Origin: an uncultured Alphaproteobacteria bacterium
GTDB lineage: Bacteria; Pseudomonadota; Alphaproteobacteria; HIMB59
DNA: 64,000 nucleotides
Direction: 5' to 3'
Assembly (NCBI GenBank): GCA_902613185.1
Contig: CACMGP010000003.1
Location: forward strand, 124,001-188,000
The notes beneath the pieces are model-generated. The model was given only the letters and a program-made list of their open reading frames with translations, did not search any database and was not told the origin of the DNA. Below, piece after piece: positions 15,815 to 21,019 of this stretch (the first letter of the stretch is position 1; every line of letters begins with the position of its first letter). Made by a program: the position numbers and the translations under genes.

Positions 15815-16582
15815 ATGTTTCAAGAATTATTTTTAAATTTATCAAATAACTTAAATAACTCTTCAGTTGTAATTATCTGGTTATTTCAAATCATTTTTTG
15901 TTATCTTTCAATTTTACTCTCACTTAAGTTCTTCGGAAAGACAGGTATTTATGTTTATGTAGCGATTGCAATCATATTAGCTAATATTCAAGTTCTTAAA
16001 GTTGTAGATTTTCCTTTCTTTCCAGAACCTATGGCCTTAGGAACTGTTTTGTTTATTTCTATATTTCTTTGTACTGACATATTGAATGAATATTTTGATA
16101 AAAAATCTGCAACTAAATGTATATACCTCGGTATTGCAGCATACTTATTTTCAACCGTACTTATGTTTTTAACAATATCTATGGCTCCAATTAATCCTGA
16201 TGAGTATCCTGCATGGTCTTGGAGCTATGGTATGCATGAGTCAATTATGACTATTTTCCTTCCACAGTTTCCAATAATAGTTGGAAGTATTTGTGCTTTT
16301 TTTATAAGTCAAAAAATTGATATTTTTATATTTTCTTATTTAAAAAATAAAAATACTAACCTTTGGTTTAGAAATAATGCATCAACAATTGTATCGCAAT
16401 TTATTGATAATATTATATTTAGTGTTCTTGCATTTAATATCTTATCTTCTAACCCAGTGCCTTTATTTGACTTAATTATTTCTTATGGAATAGGTATTTA
16501 TTTACTTAGAATTCTATTAAGTCTATTTGATACAATATTTATTTATTTAGCGAAGATCTTTTTGCCATCTAAACTTGACTAA
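15815..16582 (+). CDS. yhhQ: Queuosine precursor transporter (YhhQ/DUF165, VUT family)
   Basis: A 255-residue integral membrane protein with about six or seven hydrophobic segments. The LANIQVLKVVDFPF and FLCTDILNEYFDKKSA stretches, and later FRNNASTIVSQFIDNIIF, are hallmarks of the VUT/YhhQ family. E. coli YhhQ imports preQ0/preQ1, and relatives in salvage-only bacteria import queuine or related bases. The gene overlaps the tgt start by 8 bp, linking uptake to tRNA insertion. The window contains no queuosine biosynthesis genes (queC-F, queA, queG); whether the genome has them is unknown. Confidence 0.9.
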   Translation: MFQELFLNLSNNLNNSSVVIIWLFQIIFCYLSILLSLKFFGKTGIYVYVAIAIILANIQVLKVVDFPFFPEPMALGTVLFISIFLCTDILNEYFDKKSATKCIYLGIAAYLFSTVLMFLTISMAPINPDEYPAWSWSYGMHESIMTIFLPQFPIIVGSICAFFISQKIDIFIFSYLKNKNTNLWFRNNASTIVSQFIDNIIFSVLAFNILSSNPVPLFDLIISYGIGIYLLRILLSLFDTIFIYLAKIFLPSKLD

Positions 16583-17777
16583 TTTTTTTCAAGTAAAAAA
16601 AAAGTCAAAATTATCAAATGCTCGACTTGGATTAATTAATACATCACACGGTAAAATCAATACACCTTCATTTATTTTTTGTGGTACCAAGGCCACTGTC
16701 AAATCTGTACTGCCCTCTCAATTAAAATTAGCAAGAACACAAATTATTCTTTCAAACACATACCATTTAATGCTTCAACCGGGTTCAGAGATCATATCAA
16801 AAGAAGGGGGTTTACAAAGTTTTACTGATTGGAATGGACCTATGATGACTGATAGTGGGGGGTATCAAATATTTTCACTAGGATATGGGTCAGTTTCAGA
16901 GGAAATTAAAGGAAAAAATAATAATGCAAAGAGAAAATCTCTCATAAAAATTACTGAGGATGGTGCATCATTTAGAAATTATATAAATGGAGATAAAGTA
17001 TTCTTATCACCTGAGAGATCAATTGAATTACAACGTGACTTTGGCGCTGATCTGATTTTTGTCTTAGATGAATGCACGCCCTTTAATGTCTCAAAAAAAT
17101 ATACAGAAAAGTCTATGTACATGAGTCATCGCTGGGCAGAAAGATGTATAAATTCTTTCGACTCAAAATTTAAAAAGTATAACTCAACCTTTGGTTCCTC
17201 AGGAAAACAGTCACTATATGGCATCATACAAGGTGGTGTTTATGAGGATTTAAGAAAGATTGCTTGTGAAGAAACATGCTCAAAAAATTTTGATGGACTT
17301 GCAATAGGTGGCTCTTTGGGGAGTACAAAAAATCAGATGTACGATATCTTTTCTTTCTGTGAAAATTATATAGATAATTCAAAACCTATTCATATTCTAG
17401 GAATTGGAGGACTAGATGATATTTTGCATGGTGTAAGTTCTGGATATGACACATTTGATTGTGTATCACCTACAAGGATTGCTAGACATGGTATTATGAT
17501 GTCAAAACTATGTAGTAAAGGAATTAATTTAAACAACTCAAAATTTAAAGACGATCATTCTAGTATTGATGAAGGATGTGAATTACAGGAAATAAATAAA
17601 TTTTCAAAATCTTATATTCATCATTTGTTTAAAGCTAATGAGATGCTCGGTATGACCATTTTATCTATATATAATATTTGGTTTATGAATAAGTTTTTTG
17701 AAGATATAAGATTATCTATAAATGAGGATAGATTTGAAGAGTATAAGAATAAAATTTTGTCTAATTTAGTCGAATAA
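16575..17777 (+). CDS. tgt: tRNA-guanine transglycosylase with degenerate zinc site
   Basis: A 400-residue TGT exchanging G34 of GUN-anticodon tRNAs for a queuosine precursor. Catalytic features remain: [13 protein letters not shown] (general acid Asp), [18 protein letters not shown], and [13 protein letters not shown] (nucleophile Asp). The zinc site, normally C-x-C-x2-C...H, reads Cys335, Leu337, Ile340 and Tyr366 at exactly the E. coli spacing (302, 304, 307, 333), so three of four ligands are gone. The base-pocket LAVGE of Zymomonas TGT reads LAIGG (242-246). The start is TTG, overlapping yhhQ. The 3' end overlaps the convergent cobT by 12 bp. It could be a paralogue with altered base specificity. 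Confidence 0.9.
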
Positions 17778-19556
17778 TGATTCTATTTTTTCAAACATAA
17801 TTCCACCTAACTCTTCTACATCATGAATGGTAATTGCTTTACTGTAATACTGACCTACGTTATGACCTATACCGATTGCTAATAGTTCAATGTTTGATTT
17901 CTCTTCAATCGCAAGAATAGTACTTTTTAGGTGTTTTTCTAAATAATTACTATTGTTTACAGACAGTGTTGAGTCATCTACGGGGGCGCCATCAGATATA
18001 ACAATTAGTATTTTCCTACTTTCAGGCCTTTTCGAAATTCTAGAACTAGCCCAAAGAAGTGCTTCGCCATCAATATTTTCTTTTAATAGACCCTCTTTTA
18101 ACATTAGGCCTAAATTTATTTTAGATTTTTTAGAGTTTTGGTCAGCAGATTTATAAATAATATGTCTTAGGTCATTAAGTCTTCCAGGATTTTTCTGCTT
18201 TCCATTTTTGAGCCAATGCTCTCGAGTTTTTCCACCTTTCCATGCTTTTGTTGTAAAACCAAGAATTTCAACTTTGATTTTGCATTTTTCTAAAGTAGCG
18301 GCTATCATATCAGTTGTTAAAGCAGCTATCATAATAGGTTTTCCTCTCATTGATCCTGAATTATCAATTAACAAAGTTACGGTTGTATCTTCAAATTTAA
18401 TTTCTTTTTCTTTTTTAAAAGAGAGAGAACTATTAGAATTAGTTATAACTCTGGTAAGTTTTGAAGTATCTAGAACACCTTCGTCTAAATCAAAATTCCA
18501 TGACCTATTTTGTTTTGATTGAAGCTTTCGATATAATTTATTTGCTAATCTTGATATTTGCTTTTGATATAAATCACATTTTTCATCGAGTTGCCTTCTT
18601 AGGGCCACTAGCTCTTCATGATCACATAGTTTAATTGCTTCTATAATTTCATCATATTGATTAGTAGCTGCTTTATAATTTTGATTAAGGTTTCTATAGC
18701 TATCAATTGACTTAAATATATCTTCAATTTGTTGGTCTGAAATTTCTATATCAATCTCTTCTCCTTGAACACTAGATTGACTATTATCTGAGTCATTTTC
18801 TGGAGTATGCATATTTTCCTCTAATTGGCTTTCTTCAGGTTTTTGGGCTTGATTTTCTTCTTGGTTTTGTTGTTGATTAAAATCCTCTTCATCATTTCCC
18901 TCATCGAGATCTTTATCATCTGGTTGGCTTTCATCCTCAACCGATGGAAAAATAATTCTGAGTAAATCTACCGATAAGTTTAAATATTCTTTTTGGTCTT
19001 GAATATTCTGAGATAATTTTTGAAGTGTGTTATAAAATTTTGATATGTTGTCTTTAGAAGTTATATTCTTTAAATGATTATTATTTGATTTCCACATATT
19101 ACTGTTTACTAAATCAATGAAAAAATGCGTTAAGGTAAAATAAAATAAATCTTTAGAGTCTTTTTGTTTTTTTGATTTTAATACCTCTAATCTTTTAAAC
19201 CATTTATTCTCAATGTTTTTTATAATACCTTTGAAGGGTTTTGAGCCATATGTCTCATATCGTAAACGCTCTAAGAAAATTATTTCTTCTCTAATATCAA
19301 TATTTTTAGATGTTATTTGGTTTAACAGTTTTTCATCATGGTATTTTTTTTTAAGAGCAAATGAGTCTGCTGCACCACGCATATCCTCATAATTGAAAAT
19401 ATTTGAGATTGAGGGAAGGTTTAAAGTATCATCTTTCTCTAAAACGATATTTGAATTTACATTTATTTTTAAATCTTTATTTTCCGATATGGTTTTATTA
19501 ACAGAATTGAGTGTATTTGAAATTTGCCTGGGAATATTTAGTTGTTTCTCGGACAA
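17766..19556 (-). CDS. cobT: CobT-like cobaltochelatase subunit, VWA domain
   Basis: A 596-residue protein with an N-terminal helical region, a very acidic Glu/Gln-rich linker (about residues 200-260) and a C-terminal von Willebrand A domain. Its MIDAS motif is [11 protein letters not shown] near residue 395, with a further [11 protein letters not shown] segment. CobT pairs with the AAA+ protein CobS to drive cobalt insertion by CobN in aerobic B12 synthesis. cobS ends directly upstream with no gap (19557/19556). CobN is not in the window, and many alphaproteobacteria keep cobS-cobT as a conserved block regardless, so another role is possible. Confidence 0.92.
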
Positions 19557-20513
19557 TTAGATATCAATTGCAAAGGTTCTTTGGAAATATTCTTTATATA
19601 TATCTATTTCACTTTCGTCACATTTATTCAAAAAAGTAAATTTCAAAGAGTTTTGAATATCTTTAATAATTTTATAATTTTCTGCCCACATAATTACAGT
19701 TCTAGGGCTCATGACAATAGATATATCTTTTTGTTCAAAACCTTTTCTTGTTAAATTTGCCATTTGAACCATAGAAGCTATTATTTTCTTCTCTTCATTG
19801 TTTGCAGAAACTTTTTTTGAAATAATTTCTATTTCTTTATCCTCATCAAGGTAGTTTAATTTTGCAACTATATTCCATCTATCCATTTGACCTTGATTGA
19901 TCTGATTTGTTCCATGATATATCCCAGAGGTGTCCCCAAGACCTACTGTGTTAGCAGTAGCAAATAGTCTAAAATAAGGATGAGGTGAAAGAACTTTACT
20001 TTGGTCAAGAAGAGTTAACTTTCCCTCAGCTTCAAGTATTCTTTGAATGACAAACATTACATCTGGTCGACCTGCATCGTATTCGTCAAAAACTAAAGAA
20101 ACGTTATTTTGAAATGCCCAAGGAAGGATACCTTCCTGAAATTCTGTTACTTGTTTGTTATCTTTTAAAACTATTGCATCTTTACCAATAAGATCGATTC
20201 TCGATACATGACTATCTAAGTTAACTCTTATGCAAGGCCAGTTTAATCTTGCACAAACTTGTTCAATATGAGAGGACTTTCCAGTTCCATGCAAACCTTG
20301 TAAGAAAACTCGTTTATTGAATTTTAGACCAAGCAAAATAGCAATCGTCGAACTTTCATCAAATACGTAGTTTGTATCTAATTTAGGGCAATATTCACTA
20401 GCTTCATTAAATTTTGGAACTTTTATATCTGTTTGAATTCCAAAGACTTCTTTGGATGATACATCAGAAATTTGTAAATTATCATTTTTTTTAAGAGCCT
20501 CGATTTTATTCAT
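19557..20513 (-). CDS. cobS: CobS-like AAA+ ATPase (MoxR type)
   Basis: A 318-residue AAA+ ATPase. Walker A is GLHGTGKS at residues 73-80, and Walker B is LVFDEYD at about 140-146. The sensor region follows around LFATANTVG, and the SPRTVIMW stretch marks the C-terminal lid. It forms the motor ring partner of CobT. It overlaps the upstream J-domain gene by 4 bp and abuts cobT, so the three form one operon transcribed away from bolA. Confidence 0.95.
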   Translation of the reverse strand: MNKIEALKKNDNLQISDVSSKEVFGIQTDIKVPKFNEASEYCPKLDTNYVFDESSTIAILLGLKFNKRVFLQGLHGTGKSSHIEQVCARLNWPCIRVNLDSHVSRIDLIGKDAIVLKDNKQVTEFQEGILPWAFQNNVSLVFDEYDAGRPDVMFVIQRILEAEGKLTLLDQSKVLSPHPYFRLFATANTVGLGDTSGIYHGTNQINQGQMDRWNIVAKLNYLDEDKEIEIISKKVSANNEEKKIIASMVQMANLTRKGFEQKDISIVMSPRTVIMWAENYKIIKDIQNSLKFTFLNKCDESEIDIYKEYFQRTFAIDI

Positions 20514-21019
20514 TTTTTGTATCTTTCAATTAAGTAGTTATATGCATCTACTATTTCTCTAAATTTATCAATAACTTTTTTACTATCACCCTTTACATCT
20601 GGATGATGCTCTTTGACTAGTTCTTTATACCTTTTCTTTATCAATTTTAAGTCTGTATTTATATCTAATTTTAAAATACTAAGGGATTTTAACAATTTGT
20701 TTGATTGAGGCTGAAATCCAGCAGGGTTATCAAATGTGCCCATATCCTCACCATTGATCGTAAAATTATAAAACTTCCTACCCGATCCAAAAGAGCTTGT
20801 GGGTCTTCTCCAGATGGTGTCAAAACGAATATCGTTTTCAATTTCATTTGCATCCATTTTCTTATGGTAATTCCACTTTTTGTTAAACTCTTTAATATGT
20901 TCAATACAAAACCACTGATAATTACCTAAATTATCATAGTCTAATGGTGCTTTATAAACACCTTCCTCTTTACAATTTGGATGATTACATAAATTTTCTA
21001 TTTTATTTTTTTTATTCAT
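20510..21019 (-). CDS. J-domain protein with N-terminal Cys motif
   Basis: A 169-residue co-chaperone with the J domain at the C-terminus (about 113-168); the His-Pro-Asp tripeptide is at 139-141. The N-terminus has Cys11, Cys16, Cys38 and His41, a possible metal site. Such C-terminal-J proteins lie upstream of cobS in many alphaproteobacteria, next to bolA, as here. It probably recruits DnaK to an unknown client; a link to CobST assembly is only contextual. Its start codon is 13 bp from the divergent bolA start. Confidence 0.88.
   Translation of the reverse strand: MNKKNKIENLCNHPNCKEEGVYKAPLDYDNLGNYQWFCIEHIKEFNKKWNYHKKMDANEIENDIRFDTIWRRPTSSFGSGRKFYNFTINGEDMGTFDNPAGFQPQSNKLLKSLSILKLDINTDLKLIKKRYKELVKEHHPDVKGDSKKVIDKFREIVDAYNYLIERYKK

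Follow-up and report, generated by a model that had tools for sequence, protein, structure and literature searches.

A tRNA-guanine transglycosylase lacking the canonical zinc set in the HIMB59 family of Alphaproteobacteria

The window, the whole 64,000-nucleotide stretch of DNA analysed here, carries a gene for tRNA-guanine transglycosylase (tgt) at 16575–17777 (+ strand). The open reading frame begins with TTG, runs without interruption and encodes a complete Tgt of 400 amino acids. TIGR00430 and PF01702 match well above their cut-offs; in a profile search the equivalog model TIGR00430 scored 398.5 bits (cut-off 306.75) over the full length of the protein, covering residues 5–396. This is the sole tgt copy seen in the source genome (1.35 Mb, 92% complete). 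A gene for a queuosine precursor transporter (QPTR; COG1738/YhhQ family) lies directly upstream at 15815–16582 (+) and scores 126 bits against TIGR00697. The TTG start and the 8 bp overlap of tgt with the transporter stop (16575–16582) suggest translational coupling. On the − strand, at 17766–21019, genes resembling CobT and CobS, together with one encoding a DnaJ domain, run convergently to tgt.

The window Tgt is predicted to carry out base exchange at tRNA position 34. Both catalytic aspartates known from Zymomonas mobilis are conserved: Asp93 (codon 16851–16853, +) corresponds to Asp102, whose role is described in PMC6165067, and Asp295 (codon 17457–17459, +) to the nucleophile Asp280. Each is Asp in all Tgts of the groups compared, and the DEC substrate motif (D165-E-C167) is also kept. 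An AlphaFold model (19 sequences) has a mean pLDDT of 77.4 and a pTM of 0.84, with low confidence (below 50) at residues 96–123 and 166–171. The blocks spanning residues 321–380 reach pLDDT 87–95, so the C-terminal subdomain is modelled confidently without metal, on which the model is silent. All 50 Foldseek matches listed are TGT structures, with solved TGTs at the top (best TM 0.85/0.91); identity to the Z. mobilis structures listed is 34–37%. The window protein thus shares with the Z. mobilis and E. coli enzymes (TIGR00430, PF01702) the TIM-barrel fold, the catalytic Asp pair, the dimer hot-spot residues and the C-terminal subdomain. It differs from them in lacking the C-C-C-H zinc set, in a pocket loop one residue shorter and in a segment after SL that is 18 residues longer; its genome also lacks QueA and has no QueC match over cut-off.

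The structural zinc set C-x-C-x2-C...H is replaced in the window Tgt by C-L-I-Y. In a phmmer alignment to solved chains, Cys335 (codon 17577–17579), Leu337 (17583–17585), Ile340 (17592–17594) and Tyr366 (17670–17672; all +) fall on the four ligand columns with no gaps, and alignment to relatives places Leu337 and Ile340 likewise. The initial annotation had assigned the same four residues to the zinc columns from the letters of the window; the alignment bears this out, coordinates included. A shifted motif supplying substitute ligands was considered and rejected: no C-x-C-x2-C occurs in the 24 residues leading up to Tyr347, which is conserved.

Loss of the zinc set is a clade trait of the HIMB59 family (f1). 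Our f1 sample comprised 50 loci, which reduce to 44 distinct contigs with the window once six same-contig pairs of identical sequence are removed, and to 42 distinct proteins. The set is missing in all 44 distinct contigs, so sequencing error or a singleton can be rejected. Most f1 loci read C-[LIVM]-[IV]-Y at the four columns. Three deep members have lost all four ligands (L071, A-L-G-Y; L072, A-I-A-Y; L080, S-I-G-Y). Tyrosine occupies the His column in 50/50 f1 loci, in 0/40 Tgts of the sister family f2 and in 0/244 other Tgts of the class-wide census described below, one f2 genome being counted in both of the latter sets. In a tree of Tgts of the window's type (q-type, defined below), f1 forms one clade (99, starred), separate from f2 (99, starred) and from the other rows lacking the set. 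The initial annotation held that its claim would fall if close homologues kept C-C-C-H. None does within f1, and the family keeps an intact active site; the f2 Tgts examined (40/40, out of 110 genomes searched) do keep C-C-C-H. In one f1 locus, L021 (= L089), a poly-A run in the opening tgt codons, at the N-terminus, contains a frameshift.

The rest of the protein is well conserved. D93, D165, C167 and D295 are kept in 50/50 f1 loci, as are F83, Y347 and H350, and position 343 is F or Y. By spacing, F83, F/Y343, Y347 and H350 match the dimer hot spot Phe92/Trp326/Tyr330/His333 (PMC5395182), and the f1 Tgt is predicted to be a dimeric, active enzyme. NG86 estimates of dN/dS for the window against L023 are 0.046/0.842 for the whole gene and 0.047/1.25 for residues 325–372. 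Across the pairs compared, some distant ones being saturated, dN is far under dS for both the gene and these residues. Purifying selection therefore acts on f1 tgt as a whole and on the subdomain that has lost its ligands, in agreement with the earlier view that the gene is not decaying overall.

Several residues around the former metal site are fixed in f1. Residues 369–375 (17679–17699, +) include W369, present in 50/50 f1 loci, and F374 and F375, present in 49/49 readable ones; we propose that this stretch repacks in place of zinc. Among the 244 census Tgts outside f1, W369 occurs in 10, F374 in 6 and F375 in 1. Singly, W369 and F374 are found in 8/194 and 4/194 census Tgts with an intact zinc set; all three together occur in 0/283 rows outside f1. 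Residue 362 (codon 17658–17660, +) is Ile instead of Leu in 50/50 f1 loci, in 10/50 other census Tgts lacking the set and in 0/194 intact ones. These are raw counts that ignore kinship, and they hint that Leu to Ile at 362 is a recurrent compensating adjustment. The change of His to Tyr together with aromatic and aliphatic surroundings is peculiar to f1, and Y366, W369, F374, F375 and I362 fit packing as a replacement for zinc. Cys335, present in 47/50 f1 loci, could be a relic ligand.

We surveyed 289 alphaproteobacterial genomes, of which 260 had a Tgt match, and read 246 Tgts, one per genome. Left out were seven partial matches (G191, G229, G231, G259, G332, G376, G427), the f1 genome G156, and G359, G436, G437, G438, G441 and G446. 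Dropped rows were second copies in G188, G386 and G397, a repeat of G401, and paralogues of G182, G194, G313 and G410. The second copy in G397 (L350) lacks the zinc set, and the main copy keeps it. The canonical set is missing in 52/246 Tgts and is therefore no sequence criterion for family membership. The initial annotation had called such a Tgt unusual, which is true against the textbook but not within Alphaproteobacteria. Of the 52, 40 have His at the fourth column, 9 have Asn and 1 has Val; the remaining 2 have Tyr and belong to f1. Tgts lacking the set elsewhere in the class share with f1 the loss of the canonical ligands and the retention of catalytic residues, and differ in that Tyr at the His column is seen in f1 only. 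Those outside the q-type mostly read S-C-S/A with His or Asn, perhaps a polar substitute. L128, L209 and L271, counted among the 52, retain three possible ligands and may therefore still bind metal. A loss called for L137 from tblastn columns was rejected on re-alignment, where C-x-C-x2-C is kept. L128 (G248) has displaced cysteines, WCDGECC, ahead of the conserved helix, which may be an alternative zinc site.

Parsimony on the class tree gives 16 changes of the zinc trait, and starred branches carry 10 independent pairs; the exact number of changes is soft, since support is only 50 and 56 for the two largest groups in which every member has lost the set. The tree was built with FastTree after replacing the first three ligand columns by X; the His column stayed unmasked. 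All 40 Tgts read from outside Alphaproteobacteria keep the set, a biased sample in which losses could be missed, as it consists of the best-scoring rows of a longer list, one or two per family. An association of zinc loss with queuine-type enzymes was also rejected: 10/58 q-type Tgts lack the set against 42/188 of the other type (Fisher p 0.47).

Two types can be told apart among the alphaproteobacterial Tgts read. In that of the window, the q-type, the pocket loop is shorter and the segment from SL to KITE (16881–16940, + in the window) is longer. This segment, L102 to L123, spans 22 residues here and 20–31 across the q-type, against 4 in the other type; its length was used for the final sorting. 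Sorting by score instead found QueA in 5/65 low-scoring and 181/188 high-scoring genomes and misplaced a few genomes, and sorting by loop only put two genomes of family f23 in the q-type. The window's pocket loop, GGSLG (residues 245–249; 17307–17321, +), is one residue shorter than GGLAVG. The q-type loop is GG-[STC]-[LF]-G in 57/58 Tgts and GDCLG in one; the other type has GGLAVG-like loops. A QueA match is missing in 55/58 q-type genomes (three carry it) and in 11/188 of the other type, with a Fisher p of 8e-40 that overstates independence because the genomes are related.

Pocket determinants of Tgt have been described (PMC6165067, PMC3660597). Queuine-salvaging Tgts are typically GG[LS][AS]G according to PMC11570991, and GGSLG fits this motif in length and departs from it in the fourth residue. 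Like the queuine-salvage Tgt of the Chlamydia type, the window enzyme combines a loop of this short length with tgt and QPTR in the absence of QueA. Its pocket is altered where human QTRT1 fits the cyclopentenediol (PMC6165067), although room is made by glycines in QTRT1 and by deletion here. QTRT1 also has zinc and pairs with QTRT2 (PMC6165067), whereas the window Tgt lacks the zinc set.

Gene content agrees with a salvage role. QPTR adjoins tgt in 10/10 f1 and f2 genomes compared. QueA had no match in 7/7 f1 genomes (G000 and six others; completeness 92% for G000 and 99% for G111) or in 3/3 f2 genomes, and QueC had no match over cut-off in these ten, the best E value being an unconvincing 1.8e-6. 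A search for Qng1 (PF10343) matched 0/28 genomes and was uninformative, as the controls also gave no match. In view of the transporter beside tgt, the usual absence of QueA and the shortened loop, we take salvaged queuine, and not preQ1, to be the probable substrate of the window enzyme. Among the 25 genomes tested, 8 gave no transporter match, several q-type ones included; elsewhere in the q-type a different importer may thus be in use.

The best reading of the f1 Tgt, in our view, is a zinc-free enzyme stabilised by packing. The C-terminal subdomain would retain its fold, and the four-ligand metal site would be swapped for a small hydrophobic and aromatic core made up of C/A335, L/I337, I340 and Y366 with I362, W369, F374 and F375. 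Zinc would have been lost once, on the branch to the HIMB59 family, as one loss among several in Alphaproteobacteria, and the enzymes of this clade would most probably insert imported queuine, not preQ1, at position 34 of GUN tRNAs. We consider it likely that these elements hold together: a working Tgt without structural zinc, a hydrophobic/aromatic core in its place, a single loss at the family branch and, most probably, insertion of imported queuine. The initial annotation had raised a zinc-free or hydrophobically packed Tgt; the clade pattern and the residues fixed in f1 fit the packing, and absence of the metal is a prediction from sequence.

Other residues might still bind a metal in place of the lost ligands, for instance Cys335 together with His349/His350, with His328 or with acidic residues close by. 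Cys335 is indeed widespread in f1, and H349 (49/50 loci), H350 (50/50) and H328 (49/50) are nearly or fully constant, but Cys335 has become Ala or Ser in the three deep members and H328 has become Asp in one of them. H350 is moreover not specific to f1, being His in 184/194 intact census Tgts and lying at the dimer hot-spot position. With no C-x-C-x2-C nearby either, we regard substitute ligation as quite improbable. The lost site is deemed necessary for activity, PMC9508795 stating that TGT requires zinc and citing E. coli mutagenesis, and one f1 locus carries the N-terminal frameshift noted above; both would fit an enzyme that is catalytically dead or on its way out, its zinc site decaying. 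Such decay is barely credible given catalytic residues invariant in 50 f1 loci, low dN/dS in gene and subdomain, the TTG start shared by 37/38 f1 loci and a transporter partner retained in all ten f1 and f2 genomes compared.

Two further alternatives concern why zinc would have been lost and what the enzyme inserts. Zinc-saving substitutions are known in general. They lend some weight to an adaptation to surface-ocean zinc scarcity in place of neutral replacement, as does the description of HIMB59 as a streamlined marine group (PMC10734472). We think this unlikely: 40/40 f2 Tgts examined keep C-C-C-H, and Tgts lacking the set also occur in genomes of 5.4–5.6 Mb, such as G251 and G386, both comparisons being made irrespective of habitat. 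As for the substrate, q-type Tgts, the window copy included, could insert preQ1 as the end product, as is reported for Bartonella. A genome that has tgt and QPTR alone is reported to salvage preQ1 (PMC11570991), and Cys167, equivalent to the Z. mobilis Cys158 described as typical of preQ1 enzymes (PMC3660597), is kept; with a loop off the published motif, this residue makes preQ1 a possible substrate. The Bartonella and Pelagibacter enzymes, however, keep GGLAVG (PMC11570991), whereas the loop of the window clade is shortened to the queuine-salvage length, and preQ1 as the end product appears rather unlikely.

Descriptions of Tgt, bacterial and eukaryotic, present it as a zinc enzyme. The zinc residues are reported to be conserved in QTRT1 and QTRTD1, and QTRTD1 keeps them without the catalytic Asp (PMC4425180). 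A search of the literature on Tgt and zinc, covering titles and abstract openings and few subscription journals, found no dedicated treatment of Tgts lacking the site. The chief interest of the f1 Tgt lies in offering a natural test of zinc's role: with natural enzymes lacking the site, and sister clades with and without it, the role of the metal in Tgt can be asked. Since relatives share the loss, and similar losses recur in related Alphaproteobacteria, the textbook metal site may be dispensable. We lean towards the wider proposal that structural zinc is dispensable in Tgt, that Alphaproteobacteria lost it many times, in enzymes of the preQ1 type as well as the queuine type, and that the distinct aromatic/aliphatic core of the HIMB59 family replaces the metal in a queuine-inserting Tgt. 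Predicted use of salvaged queuine in an alphaproteobacterial clade also differs from the statement in PMC11570991 that, Bartonella aside, the Alphaproteobacteria analysed there have tgt, queA and queG.

In family f23 (G313, G182 and G410), the genomes gave no QueA match and have two Tgt-like genes (L163, L170 and L177 with L242–L244). The main copy keeps C-x-C-x2-C and has an odd pocket loop, GGVWLNV in G410.
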